From Paraburkholderia sp. D15 (GTDB lineage Bacteria; Pseudomonadota; Gammaproteobacteria; Burkholderiales; Burkholderiaceae): 64,000 nucleotides of DNA. The first letter of the stretch is position 1. Each line of letters opens with the position of its first letter. The notes below the pieces were generated by a model. It was not told where the DNA came from, made no database searches, and saw only the letters and a program-made list of their open reading frames with translations. Where the stretch lies: positions 2,914,001 to 2,978,000 of the forward strand of contig NZ_CP110396.1 of assembly GCF_029910215.1 (NCBI RefSeq), given 5' to 3'. This document shows, one piece after another, positions 35,120-45,005 of this stretch. The position numbers were made by a program, and so were the translations under genes.

Positions 35120-35350
35120 GGGCTGCTCCTTACCTGCCACGTAAGCCACGATTGTCGCGCGATTGCGCGGGGCGCGCAGCAATTGCGCGAGGATCGGATG
35201 AAGGCTGTGCGATGGCCGCGCGGACATCGTTCGCCATCGCGGTGAATGACCAGGGCGTCCGTCCGTCTGGATGCCGCCAGGGGTTCAGCGTATCCCGCAT
35301 CGGGACTATCATGTCCGTTTCGACCGACCAGATCCGCCACGGACGCCATC

Positions 35351-36823
35351 ATGATCTCCGACGATACGACCCAACCGACCGAAACGACCCCACACATCGA
35401 CCACGACAAGCTCCGCGAATTCGTCGACCGTAAATGGAACGACGAGATCGTGCCCGCGCTGACCGACTACATCGCGGTGCCGGCCAAGAGTCCGGCGTTC
35501 GATCCCGAGTGGGTCAAGCACGGCTATCTGGAACGCGTGATCACCGACGCCGCGCAGTGGGCCGAGCAGCAGGCCGTGCGCGGTCTCAAGCTCGAAGTGA
35601 TCCGCCTGCCGGGCCGCACGCCGGTGATCTTCTTCGAAACGCCCGCTACTCGTTCCGGCAGCGACGAAACCATCGTGCTGTACGGTCACCTCGACAAGCA
35701 GCCCGAGTTCGACGGCTGGCGCAACGACCTCGGTCCGTGGACGCCGAAGCTCGAAAACGACAAGCTCTACGGCCGTGGCGGTGCCGACGACGGTTACGCG
35801 ATCTACGCGAGCATCACCGCGCTCGCGGCGCTGGATACGCAAGGCGTCGAACGTCCGCGCTGCGTCGGTCTGATCGAAACCTGCGAGGAGTCGGGCAGCT
35901 ACGATCTGCTGCCGTACGTCGATGCGTTGCGCGAACGTCTCGGCAAGGTCGGACTCGTCGTGTGTCTCGACTCGGGCGCGGGCAATTACGACCAGCTTTG
36001 GCTGACCACCTCGCTGCGCGGCCTCGTCGCCGGCGACCTCGAAGTGCAGGTGCTCGACGAAGGCATTCACTCGGGCGGTTACGGCGGCATCGCGCCATCG
36101 AGCTTCCGCATCATGCGGCAACTGTTCGACCGTCTCGAAGACTCGGCGAACGGCACGCTGCTGCCGAAGGGTTTCCACGTCGACATTCCGGCCGACCGTC
36201 TGCGCGAAGCGGAAGCCACCGCGAAGATTCTCGGCGACGACGTCTGGAAGAAACTGCCGTGGGCCTGCGGGCAGGAGGGTCGTCAGGTGCTGCCCACCAC
36301 CACCGATCCGCGCGAGGCGCTGCTCAACTCGACGTGGCGTCCGTCGCTGTCGGTGACGGGCGCGGCCGGCATGCCCGCACTCGCCGATGCGGGCAACGTG
36401 CTGCGTCCGCGCACCGCATTCAAGCTGTCGCTGCGTCTGCCGCCGATGGTCGAGGCGGAGAAGGCCGTCGCCGACCTGAAGGCGCTGCTCGAAGTCGATC
36501 CGCCGTACAACGCGAAGGTGACGTTCAAACCGGACGCGGGCGCGGCGAGCGGCTGGAGCGCGCCCGATCTCGCGCCGTGGCTGTCCACGGCGTTGAACGA
36601 CGCGTCGCGTCAACACTTCGGCGCCGACGTCGCCTACATGGGGCAGGGCGGCACGATTCCGTTGATGAACGTGTTGAAGGCGGGCTTCCCGAGCTCGCAG
36701 TTCATGGTGTGCGGCGTACTGGGACCGAAGTCGAACGCGCACGGCCCGAACGAGTTCCTGCATGTGCCGTACGGCAAGAAGCTGACGGCGGCGGTGGCCG
36801 ACGTCATCGCCGCCGCGCCGTGA
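35351..36823 (+). CDS. M20-family metallopeptidase
   Basis: 490 residues of the ArgE/DapE/CPG2/carnosinase group. Metal-ligand motifs: ETIVLYGHLDKQPEF (His), LYGRGGADDGYAIYAS (bridging Asp), GLIETCEESGSYD (catalytic Glu pair), VVCLDSGAGNYDQ (Asp) and LGPKSNAHGPNEF (His). A lid domain lies at about 210-370. It hydrolyses peptides or N-acyl amino acids in the cytoplasm; the actual substrate is not fixed. Likely monocistronic, ending at the hairpin at 36935. Confidence 0.9.
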   Translation: MISDDTTQPTETTPHIDHDKLREFVDRKWNDEIVPALTDYIAVPAKSPAFDPEWVKHGYLERVITDAAQWAEQQAVRGLKLEVIRLPGRTPVIFFETPATRSGSDETIVLYGHLDKQPEFDGWRNDLGPWTPKLENDKLYGRGGADDGYAIYASITALAALDTQGVERPRCVGLIETCEESGSYDLLPYVDALRERLGKVGLVVCLDSGAGNYDQLWLTTSLRGLVAGDLEVQVLDEGIHSGGYGGIAPSSFRIMRQLFDRLEDSANGTLLPKGFHVDIPADRLREAEATAKILGDDVWKKLPWACGQEGRQVLPTTTDPREALLNSTWRPSLSVTGAAGMPALADAGNVLRPRTAFKLSLRLPPMVEAEKAVADLKALLEVDPPYNAKVTFKPDAGAASGWSAPDLAPWLSTALNDASRQHFGADVAYMGQGGTIPLMNVLKAGFPSSQFMVCGVLGPKSNAHGPNEFLHVPYGKKLTAAVADVIAAAP

Positions 36824-36992: not shown

Positions 36993-37298
36993 CACTCCCA
37001 TTCGGCCAGGGCATGGCCTTTTTGTCTTTTGCCCTTTGTCTTTTTGCCCTCCGCCTGTTCCGCGCTCGATTCGCGGCGCGACGCTCATCGGCGGTGCAAC
37101 GTCGCCCATCTTCCGTGCGCAATCGTTTTGCGCGTTCGTCATCGTGCGTGGACCGTGCACGTCGTCGGCCAGACGCCATCTTCCGTAAATTCAATAGACG
37201 ACTGCATTCATCTGTTGGTAACGCCGCACCCATCCGCTTCAGGTCTGCTTTAGGCTCGCATTGCATTACCAGTGTTTAACCTTAAAGGACCGCTCAAA

Positions 37299-38186
37299 AT
37301 GAATCTGCATAGCCACCACGCCTGCCGGCCGTTCATCGAAGCCGGCAACCTGTCGCAAATCTCGGCGTACTACGAAGAAGGACGCAACGTCATGTGGATG
37401 ATGTTGCGCGCGCAACCACGACCCTGCTTCAACCTCGATCTGGTGCACGACATTCTCGGTCTCGCGCAGGCGGCACGAGAGTCGGGATTGCAGATCGATT
37501 TCTGGGTGACAGGCTCACTGATTCCGTCGATGTACAACGTCGGCGGCGACCTCGATTTTTTCGCGGAGACGATCCGCGCCGGCCGGCGTCAGGCGCTGGT
37601 GGCCTATGCGCGCGCCTGTGTCGATTGCGTGCATGCGGCGGCGCGCGGCTTCGACACCGGTGCGATATCGATCGCGATGGTCGAGGGCACCGCGCTCGGC
37701 GGGGGCTTCGAGGCGGCGCTCGCGCATCACTTCCTGCTCGCGCAAAGCGATGCGCGTCTGGGTTTCCCGGAGATCGCGTTTAACCTGTTTCCCGGCATGG
37801 GCGGGTATTCGCTGGTCGCGCGCAAGGCCGGCATGCGGCTCGCCGAGGAACTGATCGGCGTGGGGGAATCGCATACGGCGGAATGGCACTACGCCAAGGG
37901 TCTCGTCGATCAGGTGTTCGAACCCGGCGACGCTTATCTGGCCACGCGCACCTTCATCGATACGCTCAAGCCGAAAATGAACGGCATCCGCGCGATGCTG
38001 CGCGCGCGTCAGCGCGTGCTGCAACTCTCGCGGGCGGAATTGATGGAGATTACCGAGGACTGGGTGGACGCCGCCTTCACGATCGAGGAGAAGGACCTCG
38101 CGTTCATGGAGCGGCTGGTGACGCTGCAAAACCGGCGCACGTCGAATCTGCGGCAGACGGCTTCGAGCGCGGCGAACTTTGCCTGA
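37299..38186 (+). CDS. rpfF: DSF/BDSF synthase, crotonase-fold (RpfF)
   Basis: 295-residue crotonase-superfamily enzyme that makes cis-2-unsaturated fatty-acid signals (dehydratase and thioesterase on 3-hydroxyacyl-ACP). The RpfF signature is clear: YNVGGDLDFFAETIR, the oxyanion/active-site IAMVEGTALGGGFEAALAHHF with Glu138, and GFPEIAFNLFPGMGGYSLVARKAG with Glu158. These two Glu match the catalytic pair of Xanthomonas RpfF (Glu141/Glu161). C-terminal ELMEITEDWVDAAFTIEEKDLAFMERLVTLQNRR matches too. AAAGGA precedes the ATG. It converges on the RpfR gene with a 14-base gap, as in Burkholderia. Confidence 0.93.
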   Translation: MNLHSHHACRPFIEAGNLSQISAYYEEGRNVMWMMLRAQPRPCFNLDLVHDILGLAQAARESGLQIDFWVTGSLIPSMYNVGGDLDFFAETIRAGRRQALVAYARACVDCVHAAARGFDTGAISIAMVEGTALGGGFEAALAHHFLLAQSDARLGFPEIAFNLFPGMGGYSLVARKAGMRLAEELIGVGESHTAEWHYAKGLVDQVFEPGDAYLATRTFIDTLKPKMNGIRAMLRARQRVLQLSRAELMEITEDWVDAAFTIEEKDLAFMERLVTLQNRRTSNLRQTASSAANFA

Positions 38187-38200
38187 AACGCGGCGGAAGC

Positions 38201-40204
38201 TCAGGCGATCAACCTGAGCTTCTGCCGGTCCTGCAGCCAGCGTTCGAATTCGGCGGCCGGCATGGCCTGACCGTACATGAAGCCCTGCACGTAGTCGACG
38301 CCGAGCCCTTTCATGAACACCTCTTCCGCTTCATTCTCGATGCCTTCGGCGACCACCTTCAGGTTCAGCTCCTGAGCCACCGCGACCATCGAACGCACCA
38401 GCGCCTGCGCCTTGGTGTCCGTGTTGATGGAGCGCACGAAACTGCGGTCGAGTTTGATCAGGTCGAGCGGAATCCGGCCCAGTTGCGACAGCGACGAATA
38501 GCCGGTGCCGAAGTCGTCCAGATGCACCTGCGCGCCGAGCAGCCGGAACTGCTTGATGAGTTCGAGCGCCGCCGCTTCGTCTTCGATCAGGCAGCTTTCG
38601 GTCAGTTCGAGATCGATCAGGCACGGGTCGAGATCGGCGTTGCGCAGCGCCTCGGTGAAGTGGCGCACCACGGCGGTGTCCGCCAGTTGCCGCGCCGACA
38701 CGTTGATCGCGATACGCAGATTGAAGCCGGCCGCTTTCCATTGCGCGGCCTGTTTGGCGGCGGTATTCATGACCCAGCGGCCGAGCACGCCGATCAGCCC
38801 GGATTCCTCGGCATACCGGATGAATTCCGTCGGCATGATCTGCCCGCGTTCCGGTGAATTCCAGCGCACCAGCGCCTCGGCCCCTTGCACGACGCCGGTG
38901 GCGAGCGAGAGCTTCGGCTGGTAATGCAAGGTCAGCTGGCCTTCGTCGAGCCCGCGCCGCAGATTGGTGTCGAGCCACATGAACTCGGCGACGCGGCGGT
39001 TCATGTCCGGCGAGAACACGCGATGCGTGCGTTTGCCTTCGTCCTTGGCGACGTACATCGCGGTGTCGGCGGAACGGATCAGCGATTCGAGACTGTCGCC
39101 ATGCTCCGGATAGCGGGCGATGCCGATCGAACAGCCGGTGTAGACCTCGATGAGCCCCAGCGCGAACGGCGTGCGCAGACGTTCGAGAATGCGCTGCGCG
39201 GTGCCTTCGAGTTCGTGCGCGGTGCCTTTGGCCGCCAGCACGATGAACTCGTCGCCGCCGAGACGCGCGAGCACGTCGCCCTCGTTCAGGCAGGTGGCGA
39301 TGGCCGAGGACACGTCCTGGATCAGCCGGTCGCCGAACACGTGACCGTAGTGGTCGTTGACCTTCTTGAAGTTGTCGAGATCGAGGAACAGGATGCCGAC
39401 TTCCTCGCCGGGCGCCGTTTCCTCGATCGCGACGCGGATCTTGTCCTGGATCGCGTTGCGATTCGCGAGACCGGTGAGCCCGTCGGTATTGGCCAGTTCG
39501 ATCAGACGTTCCTGCGCGAGCCGTTCCTCGGTGATGTCCGTGCCCGAGCAGATGAGGAATTGTTCCTCGACGCCGCTGCCGCTATGCACGAACTTATTGC
39601 GGAACAGAAACAGCCGTTCGCCGTGCACCGTTTTAACTTTGCGTTCGACTTCATACGACACGCCGCGATTGAAGAAACCGGCAATGTTCTGGCTGGAGGC
39701 CGCGCCGTCTTCACTGGACATGAACAGCGCCCACACGTTGCGGCCGACGATCTGTTCTTCCTTGACGCCCGTGAGTTCTTCGGCGAGCCGATTGAAACGC
39801 TGTATCCGGCCGTGCTTATCGACGATCACGACGACCGAATTCACTTCGGACACGACCTGTTCCGCGAACGACAGGCCGTGCATCAGATCGCGCGCGACCG
39901 ATTCGGTGTCGTCGTACGCGCAGGCCGTACCGGCCCAGGTATTGCCGCTGATTTTCTTGCCGACCAGATGCAGACGCAACGGTTCGCCGAACAGGCGCAC
40001 GTCGACCACCATATGCGAGGTAATGCCGGTCAGGCAGCGGATTTGCGACGCTTGTTGAGGATTCAGCGGAATGGCGACATTGGCGGGCACTTCGCCGGTG
40101 ACGGGCGTGAGTTCGAGCGCGTTGCTGTCGGTCGACAGACGCCAGCATGGGCTGCTTGTGCCGAACTGCGCAAAAAGCACCTGGTCGTGTTGGTCGTCAT
40201 TCAT
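38201..40204 (-). CDS. rpfR: BDSF receptor / c-di-GMP enzyme, PAS-GGDEF-EAL (RpfR, Gmr-like)
   Basis: 667-residue regulator. Residues 1-100 form the N-terminal RpfF-interaction-like region (FGTSSPCWRLSTDSNALELT); about 110-230 is the PAS domain that binds BDSF in Burkholderia; about 235-400 is GGDEF with intact RLGGDEF (316-320); and about 405-660 is EAL with intact GAEALVRW (443-445), DDFGTGYSSL and the EGIENEAEE motif. It lacks membrane helices, so it is cytoplasmic. In B. cenocepacia, BDSF binding raises its phosphodiesterase activity and lowers c-di-GMP. It starts at ATG 40204 after CCGGGGATCAC. Confidence 0.93.
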   Translation of the reverse strand: MNDDQHDQVLFAQFGTSSPCWRLSTDSNALELTPVTGEVPANVAIPLNPQQASQIRCLTGITSHMVVDVRLFGEPLRLHLVGKKISGNTWAGTACAYDDTESVARDLMHGLSFAEQVVSEVNSVVVIVDKHGRIQRFNRLAEELTGVKEEQIVGRNVWALFMSSEDGAASSQNIAGFFNRGVSYEVERKVKTVHGERLFLFRNKFVHSGSGVEEQFLICSGTDITEERLAQERLIELANTDGLTGLANRNAIQDKIRVAIEETAPGEEVGILFLDLDNFKKVNDHYGHVFGDRLIQDVSSAIATCLNEGDVLARLGGDEFIVLAAKGTAHELEGTAQRILERLRTPFALGLIEVYTGCSIGIARYPEHGDSLESLIRSADTAMYVAKDEGKRTHRVFSPDMNRRVAEFMWLDTNLRRGLDEGQLTLHYQPKLSLATGVVQGAEALVRWNSPERGQIMPTEFIRYAEESGLIGVLGRWVMNTAAKQAAQWKAAGFNLRIAINVSARQLADTAVVRHFTEALRNADLDPCLIDLELTESCLIEDEAAALELIKQFRLLGAQVHLDDFGTGYSSLSQLGRIPLDLIKLDRSFVRSINTDTKAQALVRSMVAVAQELNLKVVAEGIENEAEEVFMKGLGVDYVQGFMYGQAMPAAEFERWLQDRQKLRLIA

Positions 40205-40412: not shown

Positions 40413-43400
40413 CTAGAACTTCCTCGCTAGCCAGCTGCGTGCCCGCTCCCGCTCGACCGGGTCGTCCGCCAGCGGCGGTGCGAACCAGAAGGCGCCCGCC
40501 ACCAGCGTCGCGACCACGATGCCGTCGCGATACAGCACGCGATTGCCGGCCACGGCCGGCACGCGTTCGCCGACGAGCAAAGTCCCAGCCAGATTCAACG
40601 GATCGGTGCCGGCGACACACATAAAAGCACCATCGTTCGCATGACGGCGCGTTTCCCTTAAGACGGGAATGGCCTCGGGCAATGCAAATTGTTCGCCCGC
40701 AAGGCCGTTCACGAAGCGGCCGCCGCGAATCACGCCGCGCGCTTCGAGCCGTTGCAGCACGCGCAGCAGATCGCGCCATGGCGGCAGCCAGTCGGCTTCG
40801 CGTTCGAGCAGACGCCAGAACACCACGCCGTAGCGGCGCAGCAAGGTCATCGCGACGTGTTCGAGCACGTCGGGCGGCAATTGCCGGCGGCGTTCCGGGG
40901 TGGGCGGCAGTGGGGTCGTCCCGGGGCGGCTCACCAGCGCCCAGCGCCCCGCATCGTCCATTCCTCCGATCAATGCGCTCGCGCGTGAGCGCCGGTTGCT
41001 CGCGAACGCGTGGCGTTTCGCGACCGGCTTCAGCAACGCGCGCAAGCCGGCAAAGCTATCCGAATTCACCAGGCCGGCCGCGACGAGTTCGCCTAATGCG
41101 TTCTCCAGTTCCATGCGCAGCACACGGACTTCGCTCAGCAATTCGTCGAAGAACATCGCGCCGTGCCGGGCGAGTGCGTCGTACACGCTTTGCGCGCGCG
41201 CCGACAGTTCCATCGGTTTCGATCCGTCGATCAGCGCGCTCCAGACGCGCACCTGCGCGCGCGGCAGCAGCACGATCGGCGTGCTGCGCACGGGACCGGC
41301 GGCGCTGCGGGGCCGGTCGGTCAGACGGGTCCAGACGATCTTGCCGGCGCGGCATAGTTCGTCGAGCGAAGTGTTGGAATAGGCCTTCACGCGTGCGGGC
41401 AGCAGGTCGTCTTCCCACGCGCCGGCGGCGGCCTGGAAACCTTCCATCTGTTCGAGCACGGCGGCCAGCGCGTCGCGGCCTTCGCCGCGCGTGTCCGGCG
41501 TCAGATGCTGCCAGGCGAACAGGAAGCGCATGAAATCGTGTCGTTCCACCGGCTCGATTTCACGGCGCAGCCGTTTCACCGTGTAGCGATGAATCCGCGC
41601 GAGCAGGTGGCGTTCGCACCATTCGTCGTTGCCGGCATGCGGCGTGAAGCGGCCGCGCATCACATAGCCTTCCGCTTCGAGACGAACGAGCGCGCGTTCG
41701 ACCGACGCCGCCGGCAAACCCAAGGGCTTCGCGATGGTCTCGACCGGTAGCGGGCCGAAGCCGGTCAGGCGGGCGCGCAGGACGTCGACGAGCGCGTCGT
41801 CGGCGGTCCATGTGTCGGCAAAGCCTTTGGGTGCGGCGATGGAGGGCGTGTAGCGGGTCGCATCCGCGTCGGGGTAGAGCGCCTGGAAGCAGGTCAGGCG
41901 CTCGGCGGGCAGCCAGAGGGCGGTGTCCGCATCGACCTGAAGACGTGTCGCGCGGCCCGATGCGGCTAGCGAAGCGAGCCATGCGGGCCACTGCGCCTGC
42001 GTGTTTGCCTCGGCGTCCGTCGTAGTGTCGGTTTTGGTTTCGGTTTCGGCTTCGGCCTCGGTCACGCACGCGAGACCCGTCAACGCCTCGTGCATTTCGT
42101 CGAGGCTGCGCGCTTGCGGCCATGCTTCGTCGCGCACGCTGTCGATCGCGTCGGGGTCGAGCGCGCCAAGGTCGCCGGCGCTTTCCGGATCGCTCCAGCG
42201 GCGATTCTGCACGGCCTGCGTGCGGCGCTCCTCGATCGGTGCGTCGTCGAGATACGCGTACGGTTTCGCGGTGAGGATTTCGGCGGCGAGCGGCGACGGC
42301 GCGGGCAGGTCGCGCGCGATCAGCCGCACGTCGCCCTGTTCGATACGGCGCAGCAGCGCGAGCCACGTGTCGCTGTCCATCGCCTCGTGCAGGCAATCGT
42401 CGACCGTCTGGTCGACTAATGGATGGCGCGGCAATTCGCGTTCGCCGACGATGTTCTCCAGACACGCGGCCTGCTCCGGAAACACGCTCGCGAGCAGATC
42501 CTCGCTGCGCATGCGTTGCAACTGCGGCGCGGTTTTATGGCCGCCCGTGTAACGCGGCAGGCCCAGCGCGGTGGTCGCGTTCCAGCGCCAGCGCACGCCG
42601 AACAGCGGCGCGTCGAGCAGCGCCTGGATCAGCAGATATTCGGCGCTGTTCGAATGCAGATAGCGCCACACGTCGTCGAGCACGAACGAATGGCTGCCGG
42701 TCAGCGAGAGCACGATCGCGTCTTCGGTGGCGGCCGCCTGCAGCTCGAAATTGAAGGTGCGGCAGAAGCGCTTGCGCAGCGCGAGTCCCCACGCGCGGTT
42801 CACGCGACTGCCGAACGGCGCATGAATCACGAGCTGGGTGCCGCCGGATTCGTCGAAGAAGCGCTCCATCACCAGGGCGTTTTGAGTCGGCAGGACGCCG
42901 AGCGCGGACCGGGCGCGGGCGAGGTAATCGACAATCTGTTGCGCGGCGTCCGTGTTCAGACCGAGCGCGGTTTCGAGCCAATGGATCGCGCGGTCGAGAG
43001 AAGTGGGTTGCGGGGCGGTTGCTTCGTTCGCGTCTTCTACGTTGCCCGGCACATCCAGCAGCCCATCGATCTGTTCCCGCAGCCGCGCGACGCCGAACGA
43101 CAATTCGTCGCTGCGTCCCGGCGCTTCGCCGAGCCAGAACGGGATGTTCGGCGGTTGGCCTTGCGCGTCCTCGACGCGCACGCGGCCGCTCTCGATCCGC
43201 AGAATTCGATACGACGCGTTGCCGAGCTGGAACACGTCGCCGGCGAGACTTTCGACCGCGAAGTCTTCGTTGACCGTGCCGATGTTGAGCGCCTGCGGTT
43301 CGAGCACCACCGCGTAATCCGCGTTTTCGGGGATCGTGCCGCCCGACGTGACGGCGACCAGCTTGCCGCCGCGCCGGCCGCGCAGCGTGCCGCTCACCAC

Positions 43401-45005
43401 GTCGCGGTGCACGTAGGCGCCGCGCGGGCCGTTGCGGCCCGTGTAGCCCTCGGCGAGCATGCGCAGCACGGCGTCGTACTGGTCGCGCGCGAGGTCCGCG
43501 TAGGGCGCGGCGCGGCGGATCAGGTCGAACAGCGCGTCTTCGCTCCATTCGGCGTTCGACACTTCGGCGACGATCTGCTGCGCGAGCACGTCGAGCGGTG
43601 CGCGCGGGATTCGCAGCGCGTCGAGTTCGCCGCGCCGCACGCAGTCGAGCAGCGCCGCGCATTCGATCAGATCGTCGCGCGAGGTCGGAAACAGCCGCCC
43701 CTTCGGCATGCCGCCGACGTGATGGCCCGAGCGTCCAACGCGTTGCAGGAACGGCGCGATCGCGCGCGGCGAACCCATCTGGCAGACCAGATCGACGTCG
43801 CCGATATCGATGCCCAGTTCCAGCGAGGCCGTCGCAATCAGCACGCGCAGCTCGCCGCGCTTCAGACGCTGTTCCGCGTCGAAGCGATGTTCCTTCGCGA
43901 GGCTGCCGTGGTGCGCGGCGACCGCTTCCTTGCCGAGCCGCTCGGTCAGATGACGCGCGGCGCGTTCTGCCATGCGGCGCGTGTTGACGAAGATCAGCGT
44001 GGTGCGATGCATCGCGACGAGTTCGGCGAGACGGTCGTAGACGCGCTCCCACACTTCGTTGGGCATCACCGCTTCGAGCGGCACGGGCGGCAGTTCCAGC
44101 GCGAGATCGCGTTCGCGGACATGGCCGACATCGACGATCGCGCAATCGGCTTGCTGGTCGCTGTCGAGGCTCGCGCCGCCGACGAGGAAACGCGCGACCG
44201 CGCTCACGGGCTTCTGCGTGGCCGACAGGCCGATGCGCGGCAGACGGCGGCCGCATAACGCGTCGAGCCGTTCGAGCGTGAGCGCGAGATGGCTGCCGCG
44301 TTTGCTGTTCGCGAGCGCGTGGATTTCATCGACGATCACCGTGCGCGCCGTCGAGAGCATGCGGCGGCCGGAGTCCGAACCGAGCAGCACGTACAGCGAT
44401 TCGGGCGTGGTGACGAGGATGTGCGGCGCGCGTTTTCTGATCGCGTTGCGTTCCTGCTGGGTCGTGTCGCCGGTACGGACCGCGGTGCGGATGTCGAGCG
44501 GCGGCAGGCCGAGCGCGGCGAGTTCGGCGGCGATACCTGCCAGCGGCGTTTGCAGGTTGATGCGGATGTCGTTGGAGAGCGCCTTCAGCGGGGAGACGTA
44601 GACCACCAGGGTTTCGTCGGGTAGGGCGCCGCCGTGGGCGAGGCCTTGCTGGACGAGGTCGTCGAGCGCCGAGAGGAAGGCGGTGAGGGTTTTGCCGGAG
44701 CCGGTCGGGGCGGCGACCAGGGTCGAGCGGCCGTGACGGATGGGAGGCCATGCGGCGGCCTGCGCACCGGTGGGGGCTGGGAAGGTTTTCAGGAACCAGT
44801 TGGCGACGGCGGGGTGGAAGGTGTCGAGCGCTGCGGTGGCGGTGGGGGCGGCTACTGTGGCTACCGCGGCTAGCGTGGTTAAGGGCGCGGACATGCCCGC
44901 CGCCGACGCCGCCTTGCGCGGCTTCTTGCGGGTTCTGGCCGCGTCGGGCGCGGCGGTGGTCGGTTCCGAAGTCATGCCTGCGTAGATGGGGGCTCGGCGT
45001 GGCAT
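40413..45005 (-). CDS. lhr: Lhr-type giant superfamily-2 DNA helicase
   Basis: Very large helicase, about 1,520-1,530 residues, matching full-length bacterial Lhr (E. coli 1538). The N-terminal helicase core has Walker A APTGSGKT (99-106), VTTPESLY (near 198-205), DEIH (226-229), LSATQKPV and motif [13 protein letters not shown], then a winged-helix/DUF1998-like middle and a long C-terminal region conserved in Lhr-CTD. A low-complexity acidic Glu/Ala/Thr stretch ([18 protein letters not shown], encoded near 42,010-42,065) is a probable linker. The family unwinds RNA:DNA hybrids and DNA and is linked to repair. Its usual partner phosphoesterase gene is not next to it. The start could be MPRRAP (45005) or MTSEPT (44975). 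Confidence 0.93.

Follow-up and report, generated by a model that had tools for sequence, protein, structure and literature searches.

A convergent rpfF/rpfR pair in Paraburkholderia sp. D15, and changes in the RpfR sensor domains of relatives without the synthase

Is the pair of genes at 37299..40204 of the analysed stretch of Paraburkholderia sp. D15 DNA (64,000 nucleotides; hereafter the window) a standard RpfF/RpfR signalling unit, and what becomes of such a receptor in relatives that have no synthase? An earlier note had described a convergent rpfF/rpfR pair here, and both open frames are indeed seen, on opposite strands. The rpfF gene (37299..38186, + strand), for a predicted cis-2 fatty-acid signal (BDSF-type) synthase of the crotonase family, encodes 295 amino acids between an ATG at 37299 and a stop codon ending at 38186, and an AGGA at 37286..37289 (+ strand) is its probable ribosome binding site. 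The rpfR gene (38201..40204, - strand), for a predicted BDSF receptor and c-di-GMP phosphodiesterase, encodes 667 amino acids between an ATG at 40204 and a stop codon at 38203-38201, so that exactly 14 bases (38187..38200) separate the stop codons of the two genes. An M20-family peptidase gene (35348..36823, + strand) lies on the rpfF side and an lhr-type helicase gene (40413..45005, - strand) adjoins rpfR, and each has this place in 48 of the 52 Paraburkholderia-type loci L001-L052. The genome comprises 8.33 Mb in three contigs, and a search of all of it shows rpfF and rpfR as single copies on the second contig. The next-best RpfF match in this genome scores 49 bits, and the next-best RpfR matches are other GGDEF-EAL proteins with at most 40% identity over long matches.

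The 14-base junction contains no terminator-like site, and the rpfF and rpfR transcripts may overlap. On the rpfR strand, the nearest weak terminator-like match falls inside rpfF, at 37998-37984, some 200 bases beyond the stop codon of rpfR. Eight terminator-like sites were counted in the region, compared with 3.9 in shuffles, and a promoter scan found no promoter.

Residues 1-285 of RpfF match the solved RpfF of Burkholderia cenocepacia (6dgn, 5fus) with an E-value of ~1e-140. Both catalytic glutamates reported earlier for this protein are present in the open frame, as Glu138 (codon 37710-37712, + strand) and Glu158 (codon 37770-37772, + strand). The earlier note also named loss of acyl-pocket residues as a refutation; Phe44 and Phe88, the substrate-tunnel residues of RpfF (PMC6361424; articles are given by PMC number, and cited from parts of their text), are both present, and are conserved in 102 of 102 and 101 of 102 RpfF rows, respectively. 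RpfF passes the generic NCBIfam model PRK08788 (416 bits, cut-off 177), and its score of 190 bits with the NCBIfam RpfF model NF053515 is below the cut-off of 550. From this score we infer that NF053515 models Xanthomonas-type RpfF, and do not count it against a Burkholderia-type identity.

RpfR has the domain order FI-PAS-GGDEF-EAL and passes the NCBIfam model PRK10060 (1141 bits, cut-off 782). The FI (RpfF-interaction) domain, whose presence was to be checked, occupies residues 1-96 (39917..40204, - strand) and matches the whole length of 6dga (E 2e-22, 82 bits over 96 residues). Pfam recognizes the PAS, GGDEF and EAL domains, and the GGDEF and EAL motifs were read intact, in agreement with what had been claimed. 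The PAS domain spans residues 116-226 (39527..39859, - strand) in an alignment with 6dgg, the GGDEF domain residues 238-392 (39029..39493, - strand), with the motif itself at 316-320, and the EAL domain residues 414-646 (38267..38965, - strand). E443, E533, D563, D564, K584 and E620 of the EAL domain, presumably including its catalytic residues, are present along with their surrounding motifs. At residues 307-310 (39275-39286) RpfR reads NEGD, in the place where the inhibitory RxxD motif of GGDEF domains would be expected. Arg is found at position 307 in none of 103 receptors paired with an RpfF; the two instances among 86 rows of an earlier set came from two paralogues in that set. A PAS domain unable to align with known BDSF-binding residues would have spoken against the pair, and the 6dgg alignment shows the reverse: S169, N172, Y183, R187 and N202, which contact BDSF in the Cronobacter PAS domain (PMC6361424), correspond to S170, N173, Y184, R188 and N203 of the window RpfR, and all five are identical.

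The spacing of the two stops had been likened to that of the Burkholderia system. The convergence holds, being already published for Burkholderia (PMC4504480, PMC6361424) and present in all 80 loci that correspond to the best 80 of 349 RpfF matches. The spacing does not hold as a feature of the system, since the gap ranges from 10 to 1642 bases over these 80 loci, and we therefore rejected the idea that 14 bases are something special. The nearest named relative, P. bryophila (RpfF 97%, RpfR 93%), has a gap of 99 bases. One strain, Burkholderia sp. OK233, carries a second rpfF/rpfR pair (L051, 6001-8908), whose gap of 556 is an artefact of a broken reading frame; the matches for this rpfR fall in three separate frames, and the gene is broken or badly sequenced. 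The assembly that holds both OK233 copies, at the same coordinates (G124), is rated 9% contaminated.

Among 144 genomes of the genus Paraburkholderia, RpfF is found in 83 (E ≤ 1e-60) and RpfR in 105 (E ≤ 1e-200), and all of the 83 are among the 105. A sample of 398 genomes from the family, which includes part of the genus, has RpfF in 102 and RpfR in 109, and the seven genomes with RpfR only all belong to the window's genus. In the other genera of the family, all 74 genomes with RpfF also have RpfR, and vice versa, and the order is convergent in 20 of 20 loci picked from these genomes. RpfF is accompanied by RpfR in all 157 distinct family genomes that contain it (83 of the genus and 74 of other genera), a total that includes a truncated RpfF (G383) and an RpfF that lacks Glu138 (G156). 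This fits the proposal that the FI domain restrains a wasteful thioesterase (PMC6361424). The RpfF of G156 (locus L130, in another genus of the family) has Ala at position 138, and may be a synthase without the first catalytic Glu; the adjoining RpfR has Ser in place of Y184 and conserves S170, N173, R188 and N203.

Work on B. cenocepacia and Cronobacter suggests how the window pair would act. RpfF would dehydrate a 3-hydroxyacyl-ACP and hydrolyse the thioester, releasing a free cis-2 fatty acid that is most probably cis-2-dodecenoic acid (BDSF). Binding of this acid by the PAS domain of RpfR would switch on the EAL phosphodiesterase and lower c-di-GMP, and binding of RpfF by the FI domain would restrain synthesis. 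We hold it to be highly probable that the pair is a standard signalling unit of this kind, with a cis-2 fatty acid made by RpfF, sensed by RpfR, and kept in check through FI. A different reading would make RpfF a metabolic enoyl-CoA hydratase that stands beside RpfR by chance, and Pfam does call it an enoyl-CoA hydratase, just as the NCBIfam model that it passes names only the crotonase/enoyl-CoA hydratase family. However, a metabolic enzyme would hardly be expected to combine a full-length match to a solved RpfF with both glutamates and both tunnel phenylalanines, to accompany RpfR in every one of the 80 best-matching loci, and never to occur without RpfR in 157 genomes; we judge this reading extremely improbable. 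It is easier to imagine that the pair works, and that its main signal is a cis-2 acid that differs from BDSF in chain length, branching or saturation. The acyl-ACPs that RpfF enzymes can cleave are diverse (PMC6361424), and the sequence does not reveal the chain length of the signal. Nevertheless, the high similarity to the B. cenocepacia enzyme and the presence of the tunnel and carboxylate residues argue for BDSF, and we consider another main signal unlikely. Judging by its genes, Paraburkholderia sp. D15 is predicted to produce BDSF.

RpfR is found without RpfF in 22 of the 105 Paraburkholderia genomes that have RpfR (loci L094-L115). The helicase gene is beside rpfR in 21 of these loci and the peptidase gene in 19. 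The possibility that RpfF is present but diverged was rejected, as a search to E 1e-10 gave only crotonase-like proteins (best 1e-15) in 20 of the 22 genomes and nothing in two. In five loci that were inspected, rpfF is cleanly absent, and the interval from the peptidase gene to rpfR retains an open frame for a conserved 367-amino-acid protein, probably a dehydrogenase. In the paired locus L003 the same protein is encoded between the peptidase gene and rpfF. One locus without RpfF (L109, genome G129) seems to be decaying as a whole, with apparent breaks in both rpfR and the helicase gene next to it. Another genome (G103) has RpfR at the old locus (L116), with changed FI residues and an intact pocket, and an RpfF on a different contig (L117), 75% to that of the window and with Leu for Phe88; no RpfR is found in the surrounding 12.9 kb, and this RpfF is possibly a regained or moved synthase. 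Beyond the family, a class-wide sample of 143 genomes contained RpfR at E ≤ 1e-140 only in the window's own genome, and thus Escherichia coli K-12, whose receptor is PdeR (Gmr), is the sole RpfF-less row from outside the genus. A protein search with a Serratia RpfR, in which the best 120 of 3557 matches were listed, contributes no rows, as such matches carry no information on neighbouring genes. No blastn match to rpfF was found in E. coli genomes, and the DSF synthase is described as absent from E. coli in PMC6361424.

To compare the BDSF pocket, we used the 21 of 22 RpfF-less receptors that are readable in full (L109 is broken) and 103 paired receptors, of which 55 are from the genus, 28 from other named loci, and 20 selected among the family's other genera. 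Two paralogues from the window's own genome (L085, L086), a row identical to the window (L084) and two rows with an rpfR that is broken and too short (L109, L051) were removed, and L116 was placed in neither class. At least one of S170, N173, R188 and N203 is lost in 17 of the 21 RpfF-less receptors, compared with none of the 103 paired receptors. Y184 was left out of this count because it varies among paired receptors as well, differing in 14 of the 103 (Phe in 11). The strongest contrast is at N173 (codon 39686-39688), which is Asn in all paired receptors and in five of the 21 RpfF-less ones, where the replacements are Val (seven), Asp (three), Thr (three), Ala (two) and Arg (one). S170, R188 and N203, invariant in the 103 paired receptors, are conserved in 17, 20 and 20 of the 21, respectively. 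Some natural changes correspond to engineered ones: N171A and S168A in B. cenocepacia, equivalent to N173A and S170A, raised c-di-GMP (PMC6361424), and two RpfF-less receptors have N173A, and one combines S170A with N173D. Four of the 21 (L107, L108, L111, L114) retain all five contacts. The catalytic half presents a different picture, with E443, D563, D564, K584 and E620 of the EAL domain conserved in 21 of 21, and the first Gly of GGDEF replaced, by Ser, in one. In E. coli K-12 PdeR (L123, 6758-8743) the Ser, both Asn and the Tyr of the pocket are conserved, the R188 position is Leu, and FI positions D26 and A29 also differ.

These receptors are not independent, as 14 of the 21 belong to one clade. 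On a DNA tree of 72 rows (47 of 69 branches starred; L036, L051, L104 and L109 omitted), the starred branches force at least four changes in RpfF state, and a count that permits only losses gives five, in L107, in L108, in L096 with L097, in L099 with L114, and in L101 with the large clade. The DNA tree took the place of a protein tree built from the GGDEF and EAL domains only, which had low resolution (15 of 73 branches starred). Three changes at N173 are enough on the DNA tree, and counting the 16 rows that lack this Asn therefore exaggerates how many events took place. A test of N173 against rpfF loss by independent pairs, which has only four pairs and no power, was not significant (median p 0.5). 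Five of seven RpfF-less lineages, namely three of the five on the tree plus L104 and E. coli, have lost at least one of the four contacts; L107 and L108 have not, though L108 shows many FI changes (26:4). Within L099 and L114 the loss is confined to L099, and in the large clade L111 retains the contacts.

Substitution rates in the two halves of RpfR also differ with the presence of the synthase. In paired clades (40 of 55 paired rows, in six chosen clades), dN/dS is 0.04-0.11 for FI, 0.02-0.10 for PAS, 0.05-0.13 for GGDEF and 0.05-0.08 for EAL. In four RpfF-less sets, which hold 17 of the 21 rows (L104, L107, L108 and L111 omitted) and in which the set comparing L101 with the large clade has rows in common with the large-clade set, the corresponding values are 0.21-0.40, 0.19-0.45, 0.10-0.22 and 0.03-0.12. 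The ratio of sensor (FI and PAS) to catalytic (GGDEF and EAL) dN/dS is 2.0-3.6 in the RpfF-less sets, with lower bounds of 1.2-2.4, whereas in the six paired clades it is 0.6-1.4 and all intervals include 1. The sensor domains stay below a dN/dS of 1 even without RpfF, and are therefore not simply dead. Relative-rate contrasts lead in the same direction: pooled over seven lineages, with one chosen row for each and sites taken as independent, changes on the RpfF-less and paired sides number 233:38 in the sensor domains and 172:89 in the catalytic domains (p = 5e-8).

We read these patterns as an indication that RpfF and BDSF hold the FI and PAS domains constant, and that without the synthase these domains mostly wear down. 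On balance we favor a history in which rpfF was lost several times in the genus, after which the FI and PAS domains of RpfR were freed and the phosphodiesterase was kept; most receptors without a synthase, perhaps including E. coli PdeR, would then be blind to the signal or re-tuned, and a synthase would not be tolerated without its receptor. For the FI and PAS domains, adaptation to a different ligand or partner is as plausible as loss.

The faster change of FI and PAS might alternatively reflect nothing but a faster clock in the lineages concerned, instead of release from RpfF and BDSF. Their catalytic domains are indeed faster too, as the 172 changes against 89 show, and L107, the most recent loss, has no domain bias (8:1 in the sensor and 19:3 in the catalytic domains, p = 1). 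The dominance of one clade among the 21 receptors adds to this concern, as does the weaker pooled p of 2e-6 to 1.5e-3 for the five tree lineages that remain without L104 and E. coli, both of which are outside the tree. However, the pooled bias toward FI and PAS persists over all 56 choices of representatives (p from 1e-8 to 3e-6). Single contrasts reach p < 0.05 in four of the seven chosen rows and six of all 12, compared with none of nine paired controls, and the lost residues include BDSF contacts; we consider a clock effect by itself unlikely. The four receptors with all five contacts raise another possibility, that RpfF-less relatives are eavesdroppers that still sense BDSF made by their neighbours. 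That 17 of 21 have lost a contact that is intact in 103 of 103 paired receptors makes this improbable as an account of the group. Release of the sensor domains after loss of rpfF remains our preferred reading.

The window pair itself is ordinary and of a known kind. Such pairs are widely conserved, in Burkholderia, Achromobacter, Yersinia, Serratia, Cronobacter and Enterobacter (PMC4504480), a DSF system has been recognized in Paraburkholderia by genome comparison (PMC6692535), and the BDSF synthase is widely distributed in Burkholderia, Paraburkholderia and Caballeronia (PMC12838280). With the window, a further intact BDSF-type pair is recorded for a genus on which the literature search listed only six papers mentioning BDSF. 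According to work that PMC6335245 and PMC6361424 cite, mutations in the RpfR PAS domain arise during chronic infection. Our literature search, which covered titles and the beginnings of abstracts and left many subscription papers outside its scope, found nothing on wear in RpfR following the loss of rpfF. The natural rpfF deletions show which RpfR residues go with the synthase, and in this way the roles of FI and PAS become testable.

The closest of the known systems is RpfFBc/RpfR of B. cenocepacia (BCAM0581/BCAM0580), which has the same two proteins, domains and convergent order, with RpfR likened by description, and the same catalytic Glu and tunnel Phe residues in RpfF. The window represents another genus, its 14-base gap is its own, and its signal is predicted from its genes. 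RpfF/RpfR of Cronobacter turicensis, which PMC6361424 names as the source of the FI and PAS structures 6dga and 6dgg, shares five of five PAS contacts with the window, although the sequences of the two FI domains have drifted well apart (82 bits over 96 residues). Xanthomonas RpfF is related to that of the window (3m6m, E 6e-49), but the Xanthomonas receptor is the RpfC histidine kinase with the HD-GYP regulator RpfG, and the window RpfF is below the NF053515 cut-off. PdeR (Gmr) of E. coli K-12, with 661 amino acids, belongs to the same family as the window RpfR (PRK10060, as assigned from the window protein), and differs in having no rpfF partner by blastn, in the changed FI positions D26 and A29, and in its Leu at the position of Arg188. 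This Leu, at the carboxylate-binding position, bears on a suggestion made in PMC6361424, and left open there, of C12:0 as a possible regulator of E. coli Gmr.
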